A stretch of 47,210 bases of DNA. Origin: Methanobacteriota archaeon. GTDB lineage: Archaea; Thermoplasmatota; Poseidoniia; Poseidoniales; Thalassarchaeaceae. The notes beneath the pieces are model-generated. The model was given only the letters and a program-made list of their open reading frames with translations, was not told the origin of the DNA and searched no databases. The stretch lies in NCBI GenBank assembly GCA_002726275.1, contig PBSO01000018.1, forward strand, positions 1-47,210. The letters run 5' to 3'. Made by a program: the position numbers and the translations under genes. Positions 2,684 through 27,329 of this stretch are shown here, in pieces (within the stretch, counting starts at the first letter, position 1; every line of letters starts with the position of its first letter).

Positions 2684-3673
2684 TCAATTGCTAACATTAG
2701 TACAGCATGGACACGGCTGAACCCAATGCCCAGGGGAAATCTCCCTCAGGGACAGATCCATTTCCACACTTAGCTCCCAATTAGGATGCTCAACACGGTG
2801 GCCGAATGCACAGCCCGGTGGAGGGTCGACCGGGGAGGGGACATCGCCCTCGACAGTGGCATTGTTGCTGGGGCCCGTCGGATCCATCCTGGGGATAGCG
2901 GAGATTAGTGCCTTAGTATATGCGTGAACTGGATTCTTGTATATCTCATCGGCATCGGCGAGTTCCACTATCTTACCAAGGTACATCACTGCAACCCTGT
3001 CAGAGATGTGGCGGACGACTGCGAGGTCGTGCGTGATGAAGACGAAGGTCAGGTTTCTCTCCTTCTGCAACTGGGCCAGGAGGTTTAGGACCTGTGCTTG
3101 AACCGATACATCGAGAGCGCTTGTGGGCTCATCAAGGAGTATGAATTCTGGATCCAGGGAAAGGGCCCTTGCGATTGCTATCCTCTGCTTCTGGCCACCA
3201 GAGAACTCATGAGGGTAGCGATTCATGTGCACGCTTTCCAGCCCCACTGACTCTAGGAGATCAGATACACGGGATGTGATTTCAGAATCATCTAATTTCG
3301 TATTAACATGTAGTGGTTCCCCGACGATCGACTTCACGGACATCCGCGGGTTCATCGAGCCACCGGGGTCCTGGAAAACGATCTGCATTTTCTTACGTAT
3401 TTCCTGCCTCTCTATCTCATTAATTGGGGCTCCATCATAGATTATCTCGCCATCGGTAATGGGAATCAGGCCCAGAAGGAGGCGACCAAGGGTTGTCTTG
3501 CCACAGCCGGATTCCCCAACCACGCCAAGTGTCTCCCCCTTTCTGACTTCAAGCGAGACCCCATCTACGGCCCTAACATAACTCTTGACAGTGGAAAGAA
3601 GTCCACCCTTGATTGGGAACCACTTCTTCAGATTACGAATCTCCAACAGGGTGGGATATTGAGCATCTGTCAA
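2684..3673 (-). CDS. Oligopeptide/dipeptide ABC transporter ATP-binding protein (OppF/DppF-like)
   Basis: [12 protein letters not shown] Walker [32 protein letters not shown] signature, [17 protein letters not shown]-terminal PPGCAFGHR oligopeptide motif. Confidence 0.93.
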
Positions 3674-4908
3674 TTAACCACCTCCCCGGGAAGTTCGTGA
3701 TCGGTCACGCATAAGGGGCAGTTCTCGACCCAGTGACCGGGAGAGATTTCCTTTATTTCGGGCTTGACTGAGAGAGTTTCGCCGGTCCTACCCATCCTCT
3801 GGCAGAACCTGCATCCCGGAACATAGTCAGACGGGGCCGCAACTTGTCCTGGAATCGTGGAGAGCTCTGACTTGGGAACAGAGTCGAGCCGTGGGCTACT
3901 ATCCATTAGCCCCTTGGTGTAAGCATGACTGGGATTGGCGAATATATCCTCCACTGATGCCTGCTCGACCACCCTTCCCGCATACATAACGCCGACACGG
4001 TCGCACATTTCGGCAACCAATCCTATGTCGTGAGTGATCAGCAGGATTGCCGTGCCCTTGCTATCCCGGAGTTCTTTCATCAGTTCAACTATCTGAGCTT
4101 GGATTGTTACGTCAAGAGCCGTTGTTGGCTCATCGGCAATTAGTAGGCGTGGCTCACAAGCCATCATCATGGCGATCATTACCCTCTGCCTCATACCTCC
4201 GGAAAGTTCGTGGGGGTACATCTTCGCTACCGCAGATGGATTCGGTATCTTGACATCATTGAGCCTGTCCACTATCACCTCGACGTGTTTTTCATCTAGT
4301 GTATTCATCGAAGAAAGGACCCATGAGAAAACCAAGAATACCATCAGGAATGATGAGAATATTATGCTCGTCTTGATGAGCGTTACCATCAATACTGCAA
4401 ATGATAACGCTAGAATGTCATTTCCCGATAAAGACGCCTTAAAGTGATCAAAACCGCCTGTGAACCTAGAAATAAATCTAGAAAATGTAGACCTCATCCC
4501 CCTATACAGCCTCTCCACCGAGGTGCTTCCCTCGGGAGGAAGTTTACCATGCAGGCTCATGACCTCGTGAATCTGCTTCTCGACTGTGTAAAGAGGGTTC
4601 AGGGCCGTCATTGGCTCTTGGAAAATCATGCTAATTTCGTTGCCCCTTAGCTCCCTCATCCTCTCTTCTGATGCATCAAGTAGCTCCTCGCCCTCAAATC
4701 TCACAGAGCCCGAGTCGATAACCCCCGTAGTGAGGCCGATCACAGTAAGGGATGTGACTGACTTTCCAGAGGCTGATTCGCCGACCAGTCCGAAAATCTC
4801 CCCTCGGTCGATTCCGAATGAGACGGAGTCCAGCGCTCTGACATCCCCATAGTCGGTTGGGAAGTGAAGCTTCAAGTCGGATATAGAAAGGAACTTTTCG
4901 TCACTCAT
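3670..4908 (-). CDS. Oligopeptide/dipeptide ABC transporter ATP-binding protein (OppD/DppD-like) with internal hydrophobic insertion
   Basis: True start MSDEKFLSI at 4908, overlapping the stop of the upstream gene (ATGA). GESASGKSVTSL, FQEPMTALNPLYTV, HELSGGMRQRVMIAMMMA, C-terminal YVPGCRFCQR. About 85 extra residues between Q-loop and signature. Confidence 0.93.
   Translation of the reverse strand: MSDEKFLSISDLKLHFPTDYGDVRALDSVSFGIDRGEIFGLVGESASGKSVTSLTVIGLTTGVIDSGSVRFEGEELLDASEERMRELRGNEISMIFQEPMTALNPLYTVEKQIHEVMSLHGKLPPEGSTSVERLYRGMRSTFSRFISRFTGGFDHFKASLSGNDILALSFAVLMVTLIKTSIIFSSFLMVFLVFSWVLSSMNTLDEKHVEVIVDRLNDVKIPNPSAVAKMYPHELSGGMRQRVMIAMMMACEPRLLIADEPTTALDVTIQAQIVELMKELRDSKGTAILLITHDIGLVAEMCDRVGVMYAGRVVEQASVEDIFANPSHAYTKGLMDSSPRLDSVPKSELSTIPGQVAAPSDYVPGCRFCQRMGRTGETLSVKPEIKEISPGHWVENCPLCVTDHELPGEVVN
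4291..4545 (-). other. Lineage-specific insertion with long hydrophobic segment in the OppD-like ATPase
   Basis: Residues ~122-206: KLPPEGSTSVERLYRGMRSTFSRFISRFTGGFDHFKASLSGNDILALSFAVLMVTLIKTSIIFSSFLMVFLVFSWVLSSMNTLDE, absent from canonical OppD between TVEKQIHEVM and VIVDRL. Confidence 0.8.
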
Positions 4909-7205
4909 GACTTTGACCTCCTTTGCCTTGGATCCATGACGTCCCTCAGACCATCGCCAAGCAAGTTGAATCCGAGAGTGGTGGTTAAGATGGCCAGACC
5001 GGGGAATGTTACCATCCACCAGTGTGTCGGGAAGAAAGACCTGCCATCGGATATCATCTTCCCCCATTCGGCCGAGTTGGCCTCTGCGCCCAAACCAATG
5101 AAGGAAAGCCCGGATGCTGTGAGGATTGTTCCACCCACATCCAGTGAAACTGCGACGATCATTGGGGCCCAAGCATTGGGTAGGACGTGCCTGAATAGAA
5201 CTCTGAAGTCACTAGCACCGACACTCTTGGCGGCTTCAATGTAGGTATGTTCCTTCACTGAGAGGACCTGTCCCCTGATTAGTCTAGAATACCCTGGCCA
5301 GCCAGTGAAAACTAGTGCTATCATAATCTTCTCTAACCTATCCAACTTGACCTCCTCAAATCCGATTGCACCCAGGTCGTTTATGTCATTCATGGCCGTC
5401 ACCACGGCCATTGCCAGAATCAGCCCCGGTACTGCGAAGAAAATATCGGCTATCCTCATAATGATCTCATCGACCCTTCCTCCAAAGTATCCGCTAATGC
5501 CCCCAATGACCAAACCTAGGAAACAGGTGGTGAGTGCGACTGTGAAGCCGACCCTGAGGGACTTCCTTGACCCATAGAGGATCTTACTCATCATGTCGCT
5601 ACCGGTGTGAGTGGTTCCCATCGGGCACAATTGGTATTCCTCGGGAAAGAGCCAGAAGTCATATTTGTAGAAGTCTGGACATCCATTGTCATTGATTCCA
5701 GCATCGGCGAGAACCCCTTCCTCATCATACAGATAGAGATTGTAATCTGAACCGGACTCTACATTGAGGAATGCGCTAAGTGTTGCGTTGGCAGGGATTT
5801 TCACTGAATACCACTCGTCATCCTCGAAGGGCGAGGGGGATGCGGGCAAAGCGGAAAACGATGGTGCCTCTGACATCTCAGATATCGATAGGTCCAGGTT
5901 GAACTCGGTGGATTCAGAATTGGTGACTAGGATGCTTTCGTCCCACGGGCCCGGGTGGGCTTCAGGATATTCGAAGGGGGATGCGAAGACATAGCTCCAT
6001 TGACCGGATTCTTCGTCAATTGAAAACATTCCATGAGATGCAACCAATTCACCATCTATGCATCCTTGGCACCCCCATCCTGACGATTGATCGCCGAACG
6101 GCTTCACCGACTCGATGACCATCACCAGGTTCGACTGGTCCCAACCTGCATCGTGGTGGACCCTCAGGCTGACAGTGGTCCCCGCCCTGTTTGTTAGCCC
6201 GTCCTGTATGCCGTCATTGTCCTGATCATAGATGTCTGTAAGGGGGTTGTTGTCCGAGACTTCATCATAGTCAAGGAGCCCGTCTGAGTCATCATCGAGA
6301 TCGAGGTAGTCTGGACCGCAGAACATTCCAGACGTATTGTCGAACCAGGATTCCTCGTCACATGTTGAGTTCCAGTCATTATCGAAATCCGAGGGAGACT
6401 GGTCGGCGAAGTCGATAATGCCATCATTGTCGTCATCTTGGTCCAGTAGATTTAGGACGAAGTCGCCGTCATTGTCCTGATCGCCATTCGCCGTCTGGAC
6501 GTCGAGTTGTAGTTTCTGATCGGCATCCGAGGGGCTGGAGGTTACAGTGTCCTCCTTGGGACCACTGAATGGGGGGAGTTTCTTGAATGTGTACAGATTC
6601 AATGTCTCCCCTGTCTCTGGATCATCCCTGTAGATGGGCCATACCTCCTGGCCCGTTATGCTGGACTCCTGTTCCTGCTGTGCGATGGAGTCGGCATAGA
6701 GGGAGAAGTCGATCACTAGGACCACCATCAGGAGTCCGATTATGGAGAGTGCGCTCCTCCTGAAGCCCCTCCAGCTGTCCTTGAGTGTCTGGGCCGAGCT
6801 AGAGAACCTAACCGAGAGTTCATCGTACTTGGGGATCGAGGGAGTAAGAACATCCCATACCCTCTCGGCAATCCTTGCCCTCTCCGGGATGATCAGTGAT
6901 AGAATCAGAATAGTTGTCAGGGTTAGCGCCATCCCCTTTCTGAAATGATATAGTGCGATTACAGCGACTAAGGTGACGAGGATCTTCAGTAGGTCTCGGA
7001 GGGTTAATTCCCTTACTGCCTGAACAAATAGGTAGATCAGTCCGAAGATGGCGAATGCAGCTGACGAGAAGGCGAAGAAGTACAGTAGGAGCCACAATAG
7101 TGAGCGCAATGAGAATCCAGGGGATCCCACAAGGATGTCGAGTAAGATGGTTCCAGCAATAAAGGCCAATATGGCCAGAATTATCTTTAGGTCCCTAGAA
7201 GCCAT
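4905..7205 (-). CDS. Oligopeptide ABC transporter permease (OppC/DppC-like) with large extracytoplasmic insertion
   Basis: C-terminal GSDMMSKILYGSRKSLRVGFTVALTT...YIEAAKSVGASDFRVLFRHVLPNAWAPMIV...SFIGLGAEANSAEWGKMISDGR is OppC-like; central region is Asp-rich and TSP3-like. Confidence 0.92.
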   Translation of the reverse strand: MASRDLKIILAILAFIAGTILLDILVGSPGFSLRSLLWLLLYFFAFSSAAFAIFGLIYLFVQAVRELTLRDLLKILVTLVAVIALYHFRKGMALTLTTILILSLIIPERARIAERVWDVLTPSIPKYDELSVRFSSSAQTLKDSWRGFRRSALSIIGLLMVVLVIDFSLYADSIAQQEQESSITGQEVWPIYRDDPETGETLNLYTFKKLPPFSGPKEDTVTSSPSDADQKLQLDVQTANGDQDNDGDFVLNLLDQDDDNDGIIDFADQSPSDFDNDWNSTCDEESWFDNTSGMFCGPDYLDLDDDSDGLLDYDEVSDNNPLTDIYDQDNDGIQDGLTNRAGTTVSLRVHHDAGWDQSNLVMVIESVKPFGDQSSGWGCQGCIDGELVASHGMFSIDEESGQWSYVFASPFEYPEAHPGPWDESILVTNSESTEFNLDLSISEMSEAPSFSALPASPSPFEDDEWYSVKIPANATLSAFLNVESGSDYNLYLYDEEGVLADAGINDNGCPDFYKYDFWLFPEEYQLCPMGTTHTGSDMMSKILYGSRKSLRVGFTVALTTCFLGLVIGGISGYFGGRVDEIIMRIADIFFAVPGLILAMAVVTAMNDINDLGAIGFEEVKLDRLEKIMIALVFTGWPGYSRLIRGQVLSVKEHTYIEAAKSVGASDFRVLFRHVLPNAWAPMIVAVSLDVGGTILTASGLSFIGLGAEANSAEWGKMISDGRSFFPTHWWMVTFPGLAILTTTLGFNLLGDGLRDVMDPRQRRSKS
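6195..6485 (-). other. TSP3-like calcium-binding Asp-rich repeats inside the OppC-like permease
   Basis: DQDNDGDFVLNLLDQDDDNDGIIDFADQSPSDFDNDW...DLDDDSDGLLDYDEVSDNNPLTDIYDQDNDGIQDG. Confidence 0.8.
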
Positions 7206-7208
7206 GGA

Positions 7209-8633
7209 TCATCCCAACCTGACCCTGGGATCGACCCAAGCATAAGCGATATCGACGACGAGATTCGAGAGAAGGAAAATCACTGAGGTGACCATGGTAA
7301 CTCCCATTATCACGGCGAAGTCTGTGAGCAGGATGGCCCTTATCGCAGCCATCCCCATACCGGGTAAGGCGAAAATCGTCTCAGTCAGTACCGCACCCCC
7401 GAGGACCCCTCCAAGCATGAATCCGAGGATTGTCACTATGGGGATCAATGCGTTCCTGCAAGCGTGCTTGATGATGACTGTGCGCTCATTGAGGCCCTTC
7501 GCCCTAGCAGTCCTCACGTAGTCCTCATTGAGGACCTCCAGGAGGCTTGAGCGCATGTACCTCAGTAGGCCACCAGCGGTTCCCAGAGAGAGGCAGACCA
7601 CAGGTAGTGTGAGGTACTTCAGAGACTGCCAGAAAAGAGCCAATCTGGTCTTTCCCTCAGGAAGGTCCCCGGTTTCAGCCAGGAGCGAGTCGATTGTGTA
7701 AAGCCCGGTCGAGTCGTGGGACGCGATTACCACTGGCCCCATGTCCGTTGGATTTAGCAGAAAGAATGCGGAAAGAGTGAGGGATACGCCAATTATGCCC
7801 ACCGTCGCCTTGTCGCGGGTAGTCTCGGGACTCTTCAAGTTTCCAAGCCTGCCGTCTACCTTCATGTCATATGCGGCCACGGACGCCACTATTGCCATGA
7901 GTAACGATAGGCCCAAATTGCCAATGTCGAACACACCCCCCTGATTGGGGAACTCTGACCCGGGAGGTTTCCTCCCGAATAGCGGCAGGCAGCCGCCCTC
8001 CGTCCCAAACAGTGGATCGCAAATGCCGAACTGTGTGGCGAAGAGGTACTGGAACATCAGTGCCAGCCAGAAAATCGGCAGGCTGACGAATGCGATTGCC
8101 ACGAACCTGCTTATGTGGTCGATAGGGCGGTCCTGGTATACAGCACTCAATGCCCCCAGTAAGATGCCCAGGGGGGCCCCGAAGAGTATGGCCCCGAAGG
8201 ACATCTCCAGAGTTACGGGGACGGCCTGTTCGAGAACGGCCGAGACGGGTTTCTTGTACGAGAGAGAGAATCCAAAATTCCAATCGATCACACCTCCGCT
8301 ACTGTACTCGAGCGAGTTGAAGGAGGAGTCCGCGAAGGCAACGTTGTCGTTGACATCCTCATCGAACCATATGCTCCCGTCCCCGTCGGAGTCGTAGAAC
8401 CCCATGTAGTGGAAGTACTGGTCCATGATCGGGATGTCGTTGCCATCCTCGTCCGTGAAGTGCATCTGGTACTTCAGATCCGCCAGGGTGTCGTCCGGGC
8501 ACTTTAGCCCGCAGTAAGCCCTGGCCGGGTCCGATGGGACGAGGTGTGAAATTGTGAATGTTAGAAGGGAGACGCCTATCAGTACGGGAACGAGGAGGAC
8601 CAACCTCCTGACAATGTATTCCCACAGTTCCAT
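7209..8633 (-). CDS. Oligopeptide ABC transporter permease (OppB/DppB-like) with EF-hand-like insertion and extra TM region
   Basis: MELWEYIVRRLVLLVPVLIGVSLLTFTISHLVPSDPARAYCG; LLRYMRSSLLEVLNEDYVRTARAKGLNERTVIIKHACRNALIPIVT typical of OppB/DppB. Confidence 0.93.
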   Translation of the reverse strand: MELWEYIVRRLVLLVPVLIGVSLLTFTISHLVPSDPARAYCGLKCPDDTLADLKYQMHFTDEDGNDIPIMDQYFHYMGFYDSDGDGSIWFDEDVNDNVAFADSSFNSLEYSSGGVIDWNFGFSLSYKKPVSAVLEQAVPVTLEMSFGAILFGAPLGILLGALSAVYQDRPIDHISRFVAIAFVSLPIFWLALMFQYLFATQFGICDPLFGTEGGCLPLFGRKPPGSEFPNQGGVFDIGNLGLSLLMAIVASVAAYDMKVDGRLGNLKSPETTRDKATVGIIGVSLTLSAFFLLNPTDMGPVVIASHDSTGLYTIDSLLAETGDLPEGKTRLALFWQSLKYLTLPVVCLSLGTAGGLLRYMRSSLLEVLNEDYVRTARAKGLNERTVIIKHACRNALIPIVTILGFMLGGVLGGAVLTETIFALPGMGMAAIRAILLTDFAVIMGVTMVTSVIFLLSNLVVDIAYAWVDPRVRLG

Positions 8634-8744: not shown

Positions 8745-10793
8745 CTAACTCTTGTCCACGTTGAACCATGGTATGGTTGCTGGTGGAACTTCACTGGGCA
8801 TCGAAACCCTGTCAGAGTGGACGTGGTAGCTCAGGTACTGCGCCATGAAGATGAGCGAAGGCTCCTCCATGAAGAGATCGTGCGCCTCTTCGTAGAGGGC
8901 AGCGCGAGCATCGTAGTCTGTCTCGGTCTTGGCCTCTAGTAGTAGTGCATCGATGTCAGCGTTTGCGTACTGAGTGTTGTACACGTCTCCGTGCTCTGCT
9001 GCGCTAGCAACGAACGGGAACCAGTAGTTGTCTGGGTCATTGTAGTCAGGAGCCCAGCCAAGGAACATGAAGTCCCAGTTGGCGGTTCCGAACATCCTGT
9101 CCAGCATGTTGCCCCATGGCTCGCCAGTAACTGTGTTGGCGATTCCGACGAGGTCAAGGTTCTGTGCCATCAGGTTGGCGTTGGCCTCCCTGTTGACGTT
9201 TCCGTCGTTGTAGAACAGGCGGATCTCGTTTCCACCGAACCTGACGCAGTCGTCAGTGTCCTGGTTTCCGTCAGCGTCTACGCAGGTGTATCCAGCAGCG
9301 TCTAGAATGGATCTAGCCATGTCTAGGTCGTAGCTGAAAGTCGCGTCCTGGGTCTCCACGAATGGCATCCCCAGTGGGACTGGCCCGTGTAGGGGGATCG
9401 CGAATCCGTCGTAGATGTCAGAGATGGCGGTATCGTAGTCATAGATGTACGACAGTGCCTTTCGGACTGCTCCATCGCCCATGAACTCGTTGTGGGCGAC
9501 GTCTCCGTCAGCTCCCTCGATGGTCGGGTTGGTGTTCATGATTCCCAGAGCCACAGTCAGAGAAGCCTCTGGTCCGCAGTCGGTACCCTGGTCAGGGTCT
9601 CCGGTGATTGCGGTTGGGTTCTCTGTGTTCAGGCAGACCTCTGCTAGGTTCCCGCTTGGGACCGAAGCGAAGTCGACCTCTCCGTCCTTTAGGGCAGCTA
9701 CGCGAGTAGCCTCCTCAGCGACCTCGGACCTGGTGATCTTGTTCAGGTTGAATCCGCCGTCTTCCCAGTATAGCCAGTTTGGAGTGAGCACGAGCTCGGT
9801 CTCCTCGACGTAGCTGTTCAGGACGTATGCGTTGGTTCCTAGCGGGTTCGAGTGCAGGAACGCGTTGCAGTGGTCATCGGAACTCTCGTCGACATCAGCG
9901 GTAGCTGGGTCGTCCTCGGTTACGATTCTGTTAGCCTCACAGGTCTCTGCGTCAGTAACGGCTCCAATCCAGAATGCGATGGTCGGGATGAATGCCGAGT
10001 AGGCGACATCCAGAGTCGCGGAGAAGGTACCGTCGTCGTTGACGACTAGTCCGTCGCAGGAAGACATGGTCTCGTACATGATCCATGCAACACCGGAGTC
10101 TGGGCTTCCATACTCTATAACTCGGCACCATGAGTACCGAACGTCCTCAGCGTCGAACGTTGCTCCGTTCGAGAAGAAGACCCCCTCACGTAGGGTGAAG
10201 GTGTATGTCAGACCGTCGTCGCTAATGGTGTAGCCAGTGGCGAGCCTTGGAACTAGGACGGGTGCCCCGTCTGCCCCTGGCTCGTACCTGTACAGAGTGT
10301 CGTAGACGTTCTCAATGACTGCTCCGGACGACGTGTCGTACGCGTCTGCGGGGTCCATCATTGGTGGGTCGACGTCAGAGGTCATTGCAACGATCTCGCA
10401 AGCGGATGCAACGCCGGACAAATCGTCCTCTTTGCACTCGCGGAGATCCTCTAGAGCTGCCATGGCATCGGCCATCGACATGTCGCCGGAGCCGTACTTG
10501 CTCATGTAGTAAGCCTGGTCGTAGGCGCAGGAGCCATCGTCGTCAGTAGCTGACGAGTCGTAGTTTGTAGCTTCCATGTCCATGCAACCAGCTGCCTCAA
10601 GGTGGTCAAATACGCCGTCGCCGTCCGAGTCGGCGAACTCACACGAACCGTCGTCGACGGTCGCATCAGCGTCGAAGTTAGTTGCAATTTCATCCATGCA
10701 ACCCTCCACATCGTCGTCTCCGCCTAGGCAACCGGCGGTGACTGACGCAATCATCAGCGTAACAAGAAGTAAAGCGCTTAGCTTGGACTTCAT
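8745..10793 (-). CDS. Peptide ABC transporter solute-binding lipoprotein (SBP_bac_5 family)
   Basis: Signal with lipobox-like VTAGC; ATGYTISDDGLTYTFTLREGVFFSNGATFDAEDVRYSW; DNYWFPFVAS; C-terminal family features; first gene of the operon. Confidence 0.92.
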   Translation of the reverse strand: MKSKLSALLLVTLMIASVTAGCLGGDDDVEGCMDEIATNFDADATVDDGSCEFADSDGDGVFDHLEAAGCMDMEATNYDSSATDDDGSCAYDQAYYMSKYGSGDMSMADAMAALEDLRECKEDDLSGVASACEIVAMTSDVDPPMMDPADAYDTSSGAVIENVYDTLYRYEPGADGAPVLVPRLATGYTISDDGLTYTFTLREGVFFSNGATFDAEDVRYSWCRVIEYGSPDSGVAWIMYETMSSCDGLVVNDDGTFSATLDVAYSAFIPTIAFWIGAVTDAETCEANRIVTEDDPATADVDESSDDHCNAFLHSNPLGTNAYVLNSYVEETELVLTPNWLYWEDGGFNLNKITRSEVAEEATRVAALKDGEVDFASVPSGNLAEVCLNTENPTAITGDPDQGTDCGPEASLTVALGIMNTNPTIEGADGDVAHNEFMGDGAVRKALSYIYDYDTAISDIYDGFAIPLHGPVPLGMPFVETQDATFSYDLDMARSILDAAGYTCVDADGNQDTDDCVRFGGNEIRLFYNDGNVNREANANLMAQNLDLVGIANTVTGEPWGNMLDRMFGTANWDFMFLGWAPDYNDPDNYWFPFVASAAEHGDVYNTQYANADIDALLLEAKTETDYDARAALYEEAHDLFMEEPSLIFMAQYLSYHVHSDRVSMPSEVPPATIPWFNVDKS
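10521..10703 (-). repeat. GCMDxxAxNYDxxATxDDGSC double repeat with DSDGDG linker
   Basis: GCMDEIATNFDADATVDDGSCEFADSDGDGVFDHLEAAGCMDMEATNYDSSATDDDGSCAY. Confidence 0.75.
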
Positions 10794-11799: not shown

Positions 11800-11907
11800 A
11801 TGAAGAGAGGTTCTCGCGCATGGAAGAAGCGAGGCCAGCAGCGCTGGAAGTGGCGCAAGAAGAAGCTCCGAAGGCGAAAGGCAGCCAGAAAGCGCGCTAA
11901 GCAGTGA
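11800..11907 (+). CDS. eL41-like ribosomal protein (35 aa), below the ORF-track threshold
   Basis: ATG..TGA encodes MKRGSRAWKKRGQQRWKWRKKKLRRRKAARKRAKQ; resembles the archaeal/eukaryotic L41e pattern (MKRRxRKWKKKGRMRWKWxKKRxRRLKR..., from memory). Confidence 0.75.
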   Translation: MKRGSRAWKKRGQQRWKWRKKKLRRRKAARKRAKQ

Positions 11908-11963
11908 TTCCACTGAACCTAGGCAGCGGACACATTGATAGGCTGATTACCAATGCAAGCATA

Positions 11964-14900
11964 ATGACACGTGCGGATGCTACAACATACGTTGCGCTGG
12001 CCCTAGTTTGCCTTATGCTAGGAATGACTGCCTCGATTAGCCAGAATGATATGCAGATGCGGGAACTTGATGACGTCCCTGAAAAGTCGATGACGCATGC
12101 GGCCCCGAATATCCCGGGGTCCACCCCTGGCTCGATCTTCTCGGATACCACGATATCCAACGCTAGGGGTACGGCCTGCATGGTCAGGCACAACGGGACA
12201 CTAGCGTGCTGGGGGGCAAATGATGCCGGTCAGCTCGGAAATGGCCAGATGGAGGATGGAAACTACTCCGAGGTTCCGGTCGAGGTGATTGGAGTGACTG
12301 GGCTCACCTTCAGGGAGGTCGCCGTAGGGCAGTTCGCAGCCTGCGCCATTACCGACACGAACGAGTTGTACTGCTGGGGCGGTGGACAATTTGGTCAGCT
12401 AGGCAGACCCGTGTGCGTATACGTGGGCGACGATTACTACCCATGCAGGTACGCGCAAGGAAAGCTACCAGCCAAGGTCCACTTCCCAGGCAATCCGAAC
12501 GCCGAAGTCAGGACCATCGTGGGATCTGACCTGAGTGCCCACTTCTGCGCGATTATCGACGACGGAGACGTGTCGTGCTGGGGCAACAACGACTTCGGCC
12601 AGGTGGGGAATGGAGATTGGTGCAGCGAGGGCGTGACATACTCGCAGATCCCCGCGGTGGGAGACAACTGCAACATCTACAATGGCATAACTAGGCCTCA
12701 GATGGTCGAGATGCCAGAAAACCGGAGCGCTATCGCCGTATCAGTCGGAATGGGCAACTCGTGCGCGGTTCTCGACAACAACAGCTTGTACTGCTGGGGC
12801 AGAAGCGACACAGGATCAATGGGGCAGGGCGACGACTACCTCTACAAGACCACGCTTGCAGAGGATCTGGTTGATTGGGAGAATCAAGACTGGCTCAACA
12901 TGACCGATGCGACGAATTTCGGGGAAGAGGGCAAGGCCTTCATGTACCCATGCCCGTTTGGAGGCACCCATTGGATTGAGTGGACTGGCAAGGAAAACAA
13001 CACACTAACAGGCGTGACGACGGACGGGTTCACCCATGGTTTCTGGGCTGGATCCGACGTCGACTTCGCGTTACAGCTGGAACCCATACACGTCCCCATG
13101 CCGAACGGCACTGGTGTTTTGGCGATTGATTCGGGATTCTCGGGTCACACGGCGGTTCTCGAGGACGGGAACGTCGCCTACTGGGGGTTTGGCAATGATG
13201 ACGAGCGCTGGAACTCCTCACCCACCCTGAATCCCGATCTTGGGCCGGATGTGAACCGCTCGGTGATCTCCTTCAGCCAGGGGCCCGAGCACGGATGCGC
13301 CATACTCGACAACTTCGAGGCATGGTGCGGCGGGATGAACAACAACGGGCAGCTCGGACTTGGGAACTCGACGTACTACGAGGACATCACGCCAGTAGTC
13401 GGCGCACATGAGTTCGCCGCAATAGCCGCAGGGGGCTCGTGGTATAGCGACAACTCCAGATGGAACTCAACAGGATGGATGGCCGAGGTCCAGTCAACCT
13501 GTGCGATTAACACGACTGGTGGCGTCTTCTGCTGGGGCTCCGACAACTACGGTGGGCTAGGCAACGGCGGCAATGGTTTCGCATCTTTCCCCGTTGAGAT
13601 ATGGGTCGAAGCTGGGACTGACGGAACCGCGATGTTGGGCGACAGGGACCCGGATGGAGATGGCATTCTGGGAATGCTCGACGAACTACCATGGGGATGC
13701 CCTGCGGGATACTACGTAATCGACGGCTCCTGCACGGGAGTCAGTGAGGCGGGGCACTACTCCCCGGAGTTCTCAGAGTCGGACTGGGAGTGCCAACCTG
13801 GCGAGTTCCAGCCACTGGCGGGACAGGGGTTCTGCATTGAGGCGAGTCCGGGTCACTATGTCTCGGGAAGCACCGCGACATCCCAGGAATCATGCGAATC
13901 AGGCCACTACCAGCCCGATTCCGGGCAGACATCGTGCCTTGGGGCGGACATGGGGCACGAGACAAACAATGATGCCACCGCGCAGATGATGTGCGGGACC
14001 GGGTACTACCAGCCGCTTGCAAACCAGTCTGATTGCCTCGCTGCGGATCCCGGAAACTATGTCGGTAGCGTAGGTTCCACCACACAGACCGAGTGCGCAC
14101 CGGGAACATACTCGGCCAACCTAGCCGCTTCATCGTGCTCACTCGCCTTCGCCGGGCACTACGCCCCTGGTAACGGGTCTGTCGCACAGACTCCATGCGA
14201 GCCCGGGACTTACTCGGACGAGCTGGGCCTCGGCGAGTGCAAGGTAACGGAGCCAGGCCACTACACAAGCGGGTCTGGATCGACTTTCCAAACTCCCTGC
14301 TCGATGCCCCAGTTCCAGGCGTCGCAGGGCCAGAGCGAATGCATCGACTCGAACCCCGGCCACTACGTGGACACGGACGGTGCGATTTCAGAGGGGGCCT
14401 GTCCTGCAGGAACCTTCCAGCCCTCCTACGGAGCGACCGAGTGCATGGACACCAATCCAGGACACCACGCACCCTCCGAGGGCACTGGCGACGAAGTACC
14501 GTGCCCCACAGGCCAGTACCAGCCCGATTCCGGAAGCATAGTCTGCCTCACGGCAAACCCTGGGAGCTTCGTGGATTCGGAGGGCTCATCATCCCAGATG
14601 GATTGCGGTGAGGGGCATTACCAGCCAGACTCGGGCTCTGACTCATGCCTCACGGCCGACTCGGGTTACTACGCTGATGGAACAGGATCAGAGGTTCAGA
14701 GAGAGTGTGTTCCGGGGACCTACCAGCCGGACTCTGGACAAGCCTCATGCATCGAAGCAGAAGCTGGCAACTCCGCTGAAGGCCCGGCTGCATCTTCCCA
14801 GGTGATTTGCTCTCCCGGTACTTACCAACCAGAGCCCGGCAGGGCATCGTGCATCGAAGCCACCGCAGGCGCCTTTGTGGCAGATGAGGGGTCCTTGGAC

Positions 14901-15365
14901 TTCGAATACTGCGAGGTCGGGACCTACCAGCCGTCTACCGGGCAGTCGGAATGCCTTGAGGCCGAAGCCGGATACATCGTCTCGCTGATCGGCTCGCTGG
15001 GCCAATACCCGTGCGAGGCCGGGACCTACCAGCCGTCTACCGGGCAGACCGAGTGCATCGACGCCCAGAAGGGACACTACGTTGAGGCAGAGGGATCGCC
15101 CTCCCAGACGCCCTGCGAGGCCGGGACCTACCAGCAACTGGCCAAGGCCACGTACTGCATAGTCGCGGGAGCCAACCATTTCGTTCCCGAGTCGGGCGCA
15201 TTCTTCCAGCAGCCCTGTCCATCTGGCGAAACACAGCCCGAGAAAGGGCAGACCTCCTGCATCGCCGAGCAATCTAGCGACTCGGGCGGTTCCGTACCCG
15301 GATTCGCATTCATCCCGGCCATTGTGGCCATATCGTTGGCTGCCATCGGATCGAGAAGGCGATAG
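11964..15365 (+). CDS. Giant secreted/surface protein: RCC1-like repeats + 16 Cys-rich GCC2/GCC3 (ephrin-receptor-like) repeats + PGF-CTERM-like tail
   Basis: N-terminal hydrophobic signal (TTYVALALVCLMLGMTASISQ); repeated CWGxNxxGQLGNG motifs; repeated C.PGTYQPDSGQ..CI.A..GHYV; C-terminal SVPGFAFIPAIVAISLAAIGSRRR. The supplied ORF start at GTG 11904 is probably too early. Confidence 0.88.
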   Translation: MTRADATTYVALALVCLMLGMTASISQNDMQMRELDDVPEKSMTHAAPNIPGSTPGSIFSDTTISNARGTACMVRHNGTLACWGANDAGQLGNGQMEDGNYSEVPVEVIGVTGLTFREVAVGQFAACAITDTNELYCWGGGQFGQLGRPVCVYVGDDYYPCRYAQGKLPAKVHFPGNPNAEVRTIVGSDLSAHFCAIIDDGDVSCWGNNDFGQVGNGDWCSEGVTYSQIPAVGDNCNIYNGITRPQMVEMPENRSAIAVSVGMGNSCAVLDNNSLYCWGRSDTGSMGQGDDYLYKTTLAEDLVDWENQDWLNMTDATNFGEEGKAFMYPCPFGGTHWIEWTGKENNTLTGVTTDGFTHGFWAGSDVDFALQLEPIHVPMPNGTGVLAIDSGFSGHTAVLEDGNVAYWGFGNDDERWNSSPTLNPDLGPDVNRSVISFSQGPEHGCAILDNFEAWCGGMNNNGQLGLGNSTYYEDITPVVGAHEFAAIAAGGSWYSDNSRWNSTGWMAEVQSTCAINTTGGVFCWGSDNYGGLGNGGNGFASFPVEIWVEAGTDGTAMLGDRDPDGDGILGMLDELPWGCPAGYYVIDGSCTGVSEAGHYSPEFSESDWECQPGEFQPLAGQGFCIEASPGHYVSGSTATSQESCESGHYQPDSGQTSCLGADMGHETNNDATAQMMCGTGYYQPLANQSDCLAADPGNYVGSVGSTTQTECAPGTYSANLAASSCSLAFAGHYAPGNGSVAQTPCEPGTYSDELGLGECKVTEPGHYTSGSGSTFQTPCSMPQFQASQGQSECIDSNPGHYVDTDGAISEGACPAGTFQPSYGATECMDTNPGHHAPSEGTGDEVPCPTGQYQPDSGSIVCLTANPGSFVDSEGSSSQMDCGEGHYQPDSGSDSCLTADSGYYADGTGSEVQRECVPGTYQPDSGQASCIEAEAGNSAEGPAASSQVICSPGTYQPEPGRASCIEATAGAFVADEGSLDFEYCEVGTYQPSTGQSECLEAEAGYIVSLIGSLGQYPCEAGTYQPSTGQTECIDAQKGHYVEAEGSPSQTPCEAGTYQQLAKATYCIVAGANHFVPESGAFFQQPCPSGETQPEKGQTSCIAEQSSDSGGSVPGFAFIPAIVAISLAAIGSRRR
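12170..13590 (+). repeat. RCC1-like beta-propeller repeats
   Basis: LACWGANDAGQLGNGQ, LYCWGGGQFGQLGRP, VSCWGNNDFGQVGNGD, LYCWGRSDTGSMGQGD, AWCGGMNNNGQLGLGN, VFCWGSDNYGGLGNGG. Confidence 0.85.
13698..15270 (+). repeat. 16 tandem Cys-rich repeats of about 33-34 aa
   Basis: E.g. CVPGTYQPDSGQASCIEAEAGNSAEGPAASSQVI / CEVGTYQPSTGQSECLEAEAGYIVSLIGSLGQYP / CEAGTYQPSTGQTECIDAQKGHYVEAEGSPSQTP; DNA repeat units at 14910, 15012 and 15114 have exact 102-nt spacing. Confidence 0.9.
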
Positions 15366-22595: not shown

Positions 22596-22661
22596 GCACA
22601 AAGGGCCGCCATAGGCGTGAAGGACAGAAGAAGTATTGAGCGAATTGCAAGAGGGAATGTC

Positions 22662-24431
22662 ATGAGGATAGCAGTATTGCTAGAGGAAAGGTGCAAGCCG
22701 AACAGCTCGGCTTTCATGTACCTCGAGAAATATGCTGGCATGTGTGGCGGCGAGTGCATACAGCTCGAGGATGGCAAATTCAAGATCCTTGAGATGGCAT
22801 GCCCGGTGTGTTTCACTAGGGCTAAACTTTGCCCGGGTGACGCGGTCAAGATCATCAATCTGCCTGAGGAGCTAGATCATGATATGACTCACCGTTACAG
22901 CCTCAATGGATTTCGACTATTCCGACTACCGACGCCTGCCAAGGAATCGGTAGTTGGCATTCTGGGGCCGAATGGCATAGGCAAGTCTACAGCAATAAAT
23001 CTCCTATCCGGATCAGTAAGACCGAACCTTGGCGACTGGCAGAATCCACCTCCAGACTGGGATGAGATTGTCACCACTTTCCCCCGGGGAGAGTTGCGGG
23101 ACTATTTGGGACTAGTCTCTGAAGGCGAGGTTAGCATCGCAGTCAAGCCCCAGTACATCGACAAGCTGCCCAAACTCTGGGATGGAAAGGTAAGAGGTCT
23201 TCTTTCACGAGTTGACGATAGGGGAGATCTAGAGGAGTGTGCCAAGAGGATAGCAGTTGACCACCTTCTGGAGAGGGAGTTGACTGGACTCTCCGGAGGG
23301 GAGTTGCAACGTGTCGCCATCTGTGCCACTATACTCAAGGAAGCCGATGTATACTTCTTCGACGAGCCTTCTTCCTACTTGGACATCTACGAGAGGATGC
23401 GGATGGTTGGCATCATCCAAGAATTAGCATCCAAGGGCAAGAGGGTTCTGGTGGTGGAACACGATCTAGCGATTTTAGATGTTCTTTGTGATCTTCTGCA
23501 CATAATTTACGGTGAGCGTGCTGCATATGGGATTTTCACGCCACCTCGTTCAACTCGTACCGCCATTAACGCATATCTCGATGGCTTCCTGCCAGAGGAG
23601 AACGTGAGGATTAGGGACAAACCAATTCGATTCGTCAGGGGGAGAACCAGGGGCGAGGACATTGGAATTCCCATACTGCAATGGGGAGATATGGAGAAGA
23701 AATTAGGAGATTTCCAACTGAAAACCGGTCAGGGCGAGGTTCGCTCTGCCGAGGTGATTGGGGTTGTCGGGCCCAACGCAACAGGAAAGTCGACAATGGT
23801 GCGGATGATAGCTGGGGAAATCGAGCCAGATCAGGGCTGGTGTACCATGGAGGCTAATGTTTCATACAAACCCCAACATGTCAGTACCGACTTTGAAGGA
23901 AGTGTTCAGGACTGGTTGGACACTGAAATAGGAGGAAAGTGGCGCTCAGGCGAGTTTCACACCCAGGTAATCAGGCCACTTCAGGTTGACAAGATGCTTG
24001 ATTTACAGGCTCAGAGGCTTTCAGGGGGGGAATTGCAGGCGGTGAGCATAGCGATTTGCCTAGGCAAAGAGGCTGACTTGTATCTGATGGATGAACCGAG
24101 TGCCCATCTGGATGCTAATGCGAGGATGGAGGCAGCCAAGGCCATCAGGAGAACCATGGAAAGCAACGAAAAGGCTGCTATGGTCATTGATCATGACATT
24201 TACTTCATCGACATTGTCAGTGACTCCCTCCTGGTCTTCGATGGAGAGGGAGGGAAATCTGGCTTCGCCATGGGGCCACTGAGCCTTCGAAAGGGAATGA
24301 ACAGGTTCCTTTCGGGCGTCGGGGTGACCTTCAGGCGTGACCACGAGTCGAAAAGACCTCGAATCAACAAGCCGGACAGTGTTAAGGACAGAGAGCAAAA
24401 GGCTTCTGGCGAGTATTTCTATACTAACTAA
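22662..24431 (+). CDS. ABCE1/Rli1 ribosome-recycling ATPase with degenerate Fe-S cysteine motifs
   Basis: HRYSLNGFRLFRLPTPAKESVVGILGPNGIGKST; LSGGELQRVAICATILKEADVYFFDEPSSYLDIYERM; GVVGPNATGKSTMVRMIAGE; LSGGELQAVSIAICLGKEADLYLMDEPSAHLD; ending EQKASGEYFYTN. Confidence 0.93.
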   Translation: MRIAVLLEERCKPNSSAFMYLEKYAGMCGGECIQLEDGKFKILEMACPVCFTRAKLCPGDAVKIINLPEELDHDMTHRYSLNGFRLFRLPTPAKESVVGILGPNGIGKSTAINLLSGSVRPNLGDWQNPPPDWDEIVTTFPRGELRDYLGLVSEGEVSIAVKPQYIDKLPKLWDGKVRGLLSRVDDRGDLEECAKRIAVDHLLERELTGLSGGELQRVAICATILKEADVYFFDEPSSYLDIYERMRMVGIIQELASKGKRVLVVEHDLAILDVLCDLLHIIYGERAAYGIFTPPRSTRTAINAYLDGFLPEENVRIRDKPIRFVRGRTRGEDIGIPILQWGDMEKKLGDFQLKTGQGEVRSAEVIGVVGPNATGKSTMVRMIAGEIEPDQGWCTMEANVSYKPQHVSTDFEGSVQDWLDTEIGGKWRSGEFHTQVIRPLQVDKMLDLQAQRLSGGELQAVSIAICLGKEADLYLMDEPSAHLDANARMEAAKAIRRTMESNEKAAMVIDHDIYFIDIVSDSLLVFDGEGGKSGFAMGPLSLRKGMNRFLSGVGVTFRRDHESKRPRINKPDSVKDREQKASGEYFYTN

Positions 24432-26078: not shown

Positions 26079-27329
26079 ATGAAGCGCACTGCCACTCAGG
26101 CAACATCATTCCTCCTAATCGTCAGCATGCTCCTCTCTGGTTGCTCAGGGGACGTCGTGGAAGAAATCAGTGGATGTATGGACGAATTGGCGGAAAATTA
26201 CAATCCGGACGCGACTGCAGAGGGGGAGTGCACTTACCCGGACTCTGATGGAGATGGGGTTTGGGACTTCGACGAGATTCCGGGTTGTATGGATTCCGAC
26301 GCTACGAACTATGACCCAGGGGCAACTGACGACGACCTAAGTTGTGATTACTGGGAGCCCACTTATACTGACCAGTGGGAGAAACACATTCCCGAAAATG
26401 AAGAATGCATGTGTTCTGACGGGTCCGAATACTCATTCTACTCCAGAGAGGGAGACTCGGACGTTGCAGTCCTTTTCCTGAATGGGGGGGGCGCTTGCTG
26501 GGATGAATTCACCTGCACAATTGAGAACTCGTCCTCCACTGGGGCCTATTGGCAGAATCCAACAGGGTGGGGCGGGATACTGGACCTCACCAACAGAGAG
26601 AACCCACTAATTGACGCGTCAATGGTGTTTGTCCCTTACTGCACTGGAGACGTCCACATGGGCAATGCGACTGTAAGGTACGGTGACAATGTGATGCAGC
26701 ACAAGGGGTACCCCAATGCCATGACTGCCTTTGATCACTTCGTGGAGACCTTGGGTAGCGCCACTACCTTCTATGTCCTCGGATCAAGTGGAGGAGCCAT
26801 AGCTGCAGGGTTCTTCGCGGGCAATCTAGCAGAAGCCATACCTGGTGCAAACATCACCGTATTCCACGACAGCACGGGCGGGGTCACTAGCACTGGAACT
26901 GTTGACCTAAACGCCTCTTGGGGACTACAAAACGCCACTCAGAGTTGGCTAGAAGGATTGACCTACAACGGATCCTCTCTCAACTGGAATGACATGACTA
27001 GTGCGCATCTCGACATTTTCCTTTCCATGTATGACCCAACGATTAGGATAGGCAGATTCGACTCAGCGCAGGACAATACAATGAGATACTTCAATGGACT
27101 TCTTGATAATCCGCCCGAAGACTACAACTGGAGGCTCAGGGTTTCAGAAGAACACATAGAGAGTGAGGGGTATGAAATCGCAGGATACATCGCTCCGGGC
27201 GATGGGCACGGGATTCTCTTCTCTAGTTGGTTCTATGAGTTGGAAGTTGAAGGTGTGAAATTTATGGATTGGTTCATTGAATTCATCGAGGGCGGGATGC
27301 CGGAAGATGTTTGGTGCACATCTTGTTGA
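26079..27329 (+). CDS. Secreted pectinacetylesterase/Notum-like alpha/beta hydrolase lipoprotein
   Basis: Lipobox-like MLLSGC; two GCMD repeats; VAVLFLNGGGACWDEFTC; TTFYVLGSSGGAIAAGFFAGNL; HDSTGG. Confidence 0.8.
   Translation: MKRTATQATSFLLIVSMLLSGCSGDVVEEISGCMDELAENYNPDATAEGECTYPDSDGDGVWDFDEIPGCMDSDATNYDPGATDDDLSCDYWEPTYTDQWEKHIPENEECMCSDGSEYSFYSREGDSDVAVLFLNGGGACWDEFTCTIENSSSTGAYWQNPTGWGGILDLTNRENPLIDASMVFVPYCTGDVHMGNATVRYGDNVMQHKGYPNAMTAFDHFVETLGSATTFYVLGSSGGAIAAGFFAGNLAEAIPGANITVFHDSTGGVTSTGTVDLNASWGLQNATQSWLEGLTYNGSSLNWNDMTSAHLDIFLSMYDPTIRIGRFDSAQDNTMRYFNGLLDNPPEDYNWRLRVSEEHIESEGYEIAGYIAPGDGHGILFSSWFYELEVEGVKFMDWFIEFIEGGMPEDVWCTSC
26172..26351 (+). repeat. GCMDxxAxNYDPxAT double repeat with DSDGDG linker
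   Basis: GCMDELAENYNPDATAEGECTYPDSDGDGVWDFDEIPGCMDSDATNYDPGATDDDLSCDY; same layout as in the peptide-binding protein at 10521-10703. Confidence 0.75.

Follow-up and report, generated by a model that had tools for sequence, protein, structure and literature searches.

In textbook ABC importers the ATPase is a peripheral cytosolic subunit, and the solved OppD and DppD ATPases contain no membrane segment. In MacB and the half-transporters, the membrane domain lies on the same chain, before or after an uninterrupted ATPase. We analyzed an archaeal oppD gene located in a stretch of 47,210 nucleotides, the whole of which is called the window here. Its product shares the ATPase motifs, the oligo_HPY domain and the type of operon with E. 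coli DppD (8z1v_C), E. coli OppD (8z21_C) and M. tuberculosis Rv1281c (8j5q_D). It differs from the solved proteins because in the systems described here one or two putative hydrophobic hairpins lie inside the ATPase, and because the C-terminal cysteines of the window protein are altered. Like MacB and the half-transporters, this protein combines an ATPase with putative membrane helices on a single chain. However, the predicted helices interrupt the window ATPase, and OppB and OppC remain separate genes, so that the protein is not of the MacB type. Other OppDs of the same phylum have inserts at the two corresponding sites as well. These inserts are soluble and hydrophilic, devoid of membrane segments. 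The Mycoplasma OppD and OppF (NCBIfam NF043079, 561 aa, and NF043078, 649 aa) are also enlarged, a comparison made on the length of the NCBIfam models only. Membrane hairpins within an ABC ATPase were not found described in the open-access literature searched. The variant is real, and it is probably undescribed.

The oppD gene, its operon and its catalytic core

The gene oppD (3670 to 4908, minus strand), defined by its reading frame, motifs, Pfam and Foldseek, encodes a peptide ABC-importer ATPase of 412 aa with a putative membrane insert. It belongs to a minus-strand operon oppA-oppB-oppC-oppD-oppF, in which oppC/oppD and oppD/oppF overlap by a few bases; the ATG of oppD, at 4908, is located within the end of oppC. 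The other members, all on the minus strand, are an oppA-type substrate-binding protein (SBP_bac_5 by Pfam, 8745 to 10793), the permease genes oppB (7209 to 8633, 474 aa) and oppC (4905 to 7205, 766 aa), and oppF (2684 to 3673), the partner ATPase, which has the canonical length and no insert. Reading frames and Pfam matches supported the last three assignments.

The five ATPase motifs are all intact and in frame, as the sequence-only reading had stated for those flanking the insert. Walker A (GESASGKS, residues 43-50, 4759 to 4782) contains the residues that are invariant in the homologue alignment. It is followed by the Q-loop (FQEPM, residues 96-100, 4609 to 4623), the signature (LSGGMRQR, residues 235-242, 4183 to 4206), Walker B with the catalytic Glu (LLIADEP, residues 255-261, 4126 to 4146), all on the minus strand, and the H-loop. 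Pfam matched ABC_tran (E 5.9e-25) and, at residues 314-371, oligo_HPY (PF08352, E 5.4e-14). The top Foldseek matches of the AlphaFold model were E. coli DppD and OppD, with TM-scores of 0.86-0.90 normalized by target and E values from 8e-33 to 6e-31. By motif, fold, domain and operon, the window protein is an OppD.

As read from its sequence, the protein departs from the usual OppD twice, in its putative membrane segments and in the spacing of the [4Fe-4S] cysteines. The canonical four-Cys spacing (Cys284, 290, 297 and 315 in E. coli DppD) is replaced at the C-terminus by GCRFC...CPLC, that is C366, C369, C397 and C400 (3709-3813). This form occurs in several relatives, while many others keep the canonical pattern. 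The altered cysteines may form a zinc site or a variant cluster. The C-terminal end of OppF (gene at 2684-3673) similarly shows GCAF...CPCC in place of the canonical cysteines.

The window carries several other genes. The product of gene 22617-24431 has tandem ABC domains and is presumably an ABCE1-like protein, pointing to an archaeon. A secreted-looking protein of 1153 aa (11904-15365) has RCC1 repeats, then ephrin-receptor-like cysteine repeats, and finally a hydrophobic C-terminal tail with arginines at its end. A Pectinacetylesterase-like protein (PF03283, E 7.5e-17) is encoded in this archaeal genome at 26079-27329.

The insert between Q-loop and signature

Insertions were found at two sites of the OppD ATPases, between Walker A and the Q-loop (site 1) and between the Q-loop and the signature (site 2). 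Alignments place the site-2 insert of the window protein at about residues 125-202 (4303 to 4536, minus strand), between the Q-loop helix and the pre-signature helix. As a control set, we used 70 bacterial OppDs. FQEP and LSGGM are 139 residues apart in the window OppD versus 59-62 in 68 of them. Between the conserved His that follows the Q-loop helix and the IP motif, the window protein has around 78 residues more than E. coli DppD; the figure of about 85 proposed from the sequence alone was thus slightly high, although the insert itself is real. GC content falls to around 40% across the insert, compared with 52-54% in the surroundings.

The insert begins with a basic helix (residues 131-159, 4432 to 4518, minus strand) containing R133, R136, R139, R144, R148 and K157, which AlphaFold models with a pLDDT of about 62-77 and which probably lies at the membrane surface. 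It is followed by a hydrophobic stretch of 36 residues, I165-S200 (4309 to 4416, minus strand), almost exactly where it had been first noticed (4309-4419). Hydropathy resolves two segments, as expected for the membrane hairpin that had been proposed: a half-helix 165-178, the turn K179-T180-S181 and a half-helix 182-200. These half-helices are short (14 and 19 residues) and K179 lies within the turn, a position occupied by SNLP or SKAP in close relatives. The AlphaFold monomer (mean pLDDT 88), whose alignment held only two insert-bearing relatives, shows instead a single hydrophobic helix at 165-201. The proposed hairpin is therefore supported by the hairpin-like behavior of the inserts of the relatives, but not by the model of the window protein itself. 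We consider a true two-span hairpin in the window OppD probable, mainly on the evidence of these relatives.

The insert as a known domain was tried and rejected: the Pfam search of the site-2 inserts matched no domain, and that of the site-1 inserts gave only one sub-threshold DUF6594 match (E 0.0076), in one insert.

Distribution, topology and origins of the inserts

A hydrophobic site-2 insert is present in all 30 distinct complete OppDs measured in the same archaeal family, so that the insert noticed earlier is a lineage-specific feature, which close relatives keep in the alignment. Three of the 30, including the window protein, are short forms with 139-140 residues from Q-loop to signature. 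The rest are long forms with 194-291 residues and mostly four to six predicted membrane segments; they also carry a site-1 insert of around 60-70 residues with two hydrophobic segments. One genome (G112) encodes one short and one long OppD, showing that these are two systems and not alleles. The genomes of the family measure 0.9-2.1 Mb (1.24 Mb for the draft genome of the window), and about half of them encode a rhodopsin.

Of 16 OppDs from a second order of the class, 14 have a hairpin of two segments at site 2 but no hairpin at site 1; the remaining two lack the site-2 hairpin. Outside the class, the phylum has many OppDs (families f6, f27, f30, f47, f51 and others) with hydrophilic inserts at the same two sites, which indicates that these sites are open to insertion throughout the phylum. 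Within the phylum, and in this sample, the predicted membrane character is peculiar to this class. The soluble site-2 insert of families f30 and f51 shows a zinc-ribbon-like motif, and zinc-ribbon-like CxxC...CxxC inserts within the ATPase were also seen at site 2 of the OppDs of L062, L063, L065, L067 and L076. No site-2 insert was found in the OppF of the systems looked at, and no comparable insert in the window oppF or in the other ATPases checked in its own genome.

The topology of the inserts was evaluated from segment counts made with our own hydropathy script, which is crude and not a trained predictor. With this script, every protein having a site-1 insert shows exactly two segments there, and 38 of the 46 sequences with a site-2 insert have an even number, mostly 2, 4 or 6. 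An even count is what would leave both halves of the ATPase in the cytosol. In the long archaeal forms, Lys and Arg at site 1 amount to 27.4 per 100 residues in the cytosolic flanks versus 2.6 in the outer turn, and the two insert-bearing OppDs of Neomarinimicrobiota follow the same trend. At site 2 the positive-inside bias is moderate in family f3, weak in the long forms (12.6 versus 9.1), and not seen in the short forms, where the turn is very short.

The dN/dS values are mostly 0.1-0.4 for the inserts versus 0.03-0.13 for the core, the pairs nearest to the window protein being near-saturated at silent sites. By this measure the inserts are under purifying selection. Their sequence and length drift quickly, while reading frame and hydrophobicity are preserved over long divergence. 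We regard the inserts of the family as very probably membrane inserts. It is strongly indicated that those of the relatives are membrane hairpins, which exit and re-enter on the cytosolic side and keep the ATPase halves together.

For the window insert, another reading is that it is hydrophobic yet does not span the bilayer, forming an in-plane or re-entrant helix or packing on the permease. Its short half-helices, the lysine in the turn, the single long helix of the model and the preceding basic helix would all suit such an arrangement. We nevertheless hold it to be unlikely, since the relatives carry at the same site longer, clearer and even-numbered pairs of segments, and the charge bias at site 1 is strong.

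Among the 70 bacterial OppDs, membrane inserts were detected in only two, both from Neomarinimicrobiota (L092, 7485-8987; L096, 7485-8984), showing that canonical OppDs do not commonly carry them. These two proteins have two hydrophobic segments at each of the two sites. AlphaFold (mean pLDDT 90) models helical pairs at both sites of one Neomarinimicrobiota OppD, whose best structural match is likewise E. coli DppD/OppD. In the core tree they are placed beside an insert-less Kapaibacterium, apart from the archaea. Forcing them together with the archaeal family was borderline rejected by the AU test (p 0.043), while forcing the two archaeal orders together was not rejected (p 0.17), which is compatible with a single origin for both orders. 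The core tree disfavours horizontal exchange of the inserts between these archaea and Neomarinimicrobiota, the AU test being only borderline. The inserts likely had at least two origins, the bacterial one being independent, although the test is weak.

The permease contact and the proposed role of the hairpin

In the E. coli DppBCDF complex, E114 of DppD is salt-bridged to K243 of DppB, as part of the contact mediated by the coupling helix (PMC12136057). This residue aligns with the invariant E115 of the window OppD, and the insert starts around 10 residues later. From this spacing in the sequence, the insertion point should lie close to where the permease is touched, plausibly on the membrane-facing side.

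The permeases of these systems are enlarged as well. In the long-form systems OppC has 586-678 aa and 9-11 segments; bacterial OppCs have about 6-7, and those of the soluble-insert archaea compared 5-6. In two parts of the window oppC (6216-6542 and 6800-7205) lie a region of acidic DxDxDGD-rich repeats, which follows the first canonical segment and looks thrombospondin type 3-like by eye, and four extra N-terminal hydrophobic segments. The window OppB is longer by around 100 residues in the middle of the permease (7644-7934), a part that contributes two more hydrophobic segments. OppB and OppC of the other order seemingly form one chain, with several extra segments between them (L200, 4373-6649; L201, 4224-6668). 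The enlargement of OppC and OppB and the hairpins of OppD may be linked, a correlation over few lineages; the permeases of Neomarinimicrobiota are not obviously enlarged despite the OppD inserts.

We favour, with some reserve, a membrane-integrated OppD-type ATPase with a hairpin in the helical subdomain, most likely braced on the permease. OppD would remain an active ATPase paired with OppF. The hairpin would enter the bilayer beside OppB and OppC, because the insertion falls a few residues past the helix predicted to touch the coupling helix of OppB. There it would anchor or brace OppD on the permease, and OppD would thereby be built permanently into the membrane instead of being a peripheral subunit. 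We see even chances that bracing is what the hairpin does. The quick drift of the sequence with hydrophobicity maintained favours an anchor or brace over a precise regulator. A further-reaching version is rather doubtful: the ATPase would add transmembrane helices of its own, about two plus six at most, to a membrane domain itself enlarged with OppC and OppB helices, motion would be transmitted also through the bilayer and not by the coupling helices alone, and the arrangement would have arisen on two or more occasions among ocean microbes.

The hairpins might instead be a coupling or regulatory element that alters the coupling of ATP hydrolysis to transport, for instance in response to lipid, membrane potential or a further partner within the membrane. 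Such a role would fit the position of the insert next to the coupling-helix contact, the asymmetry between OppD and OppF and the extra segments in OppC and OppB of the same systems. However, the fast drift in length (194-291 residues in the long forms) and a dN/dS above that of the core suit packing or anchoring better, and we consider this role unlikely. Still less probable is a neutral lineage-specific insertion at an old permissive hot spot, devoid of function. Purifying selection, the long preservation of frame and hydrophobicity and the similar solution in marine bacteria argue against it, even though other members of the phylum have at these sites soluble inserts that vary in length and sequence, and two OppDs of the other order have no membrane insert. 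An assembly error, frameshift or pseudogene, which the dip in GC across the insert might evoke and the last of which the sequence-only reading already doubted, is ruled out for practical purposes by dozens of in-frame homologues from separately assembled genomes, with the same site and character, no stops and conserved motifs.

A membrane-integrated ATPase conserved in these archaea, which probably belong to the abundant and uncultivated Marine Group II (Poseidoniales), would revise the picture of how ABC importers are assembled and coupled. The natural series formed by OppDs with no insert, a soluble insert, or 2, 4 or 6 predicted segments would test how far the helical subdomain near the coupling helix can be rebuilt.
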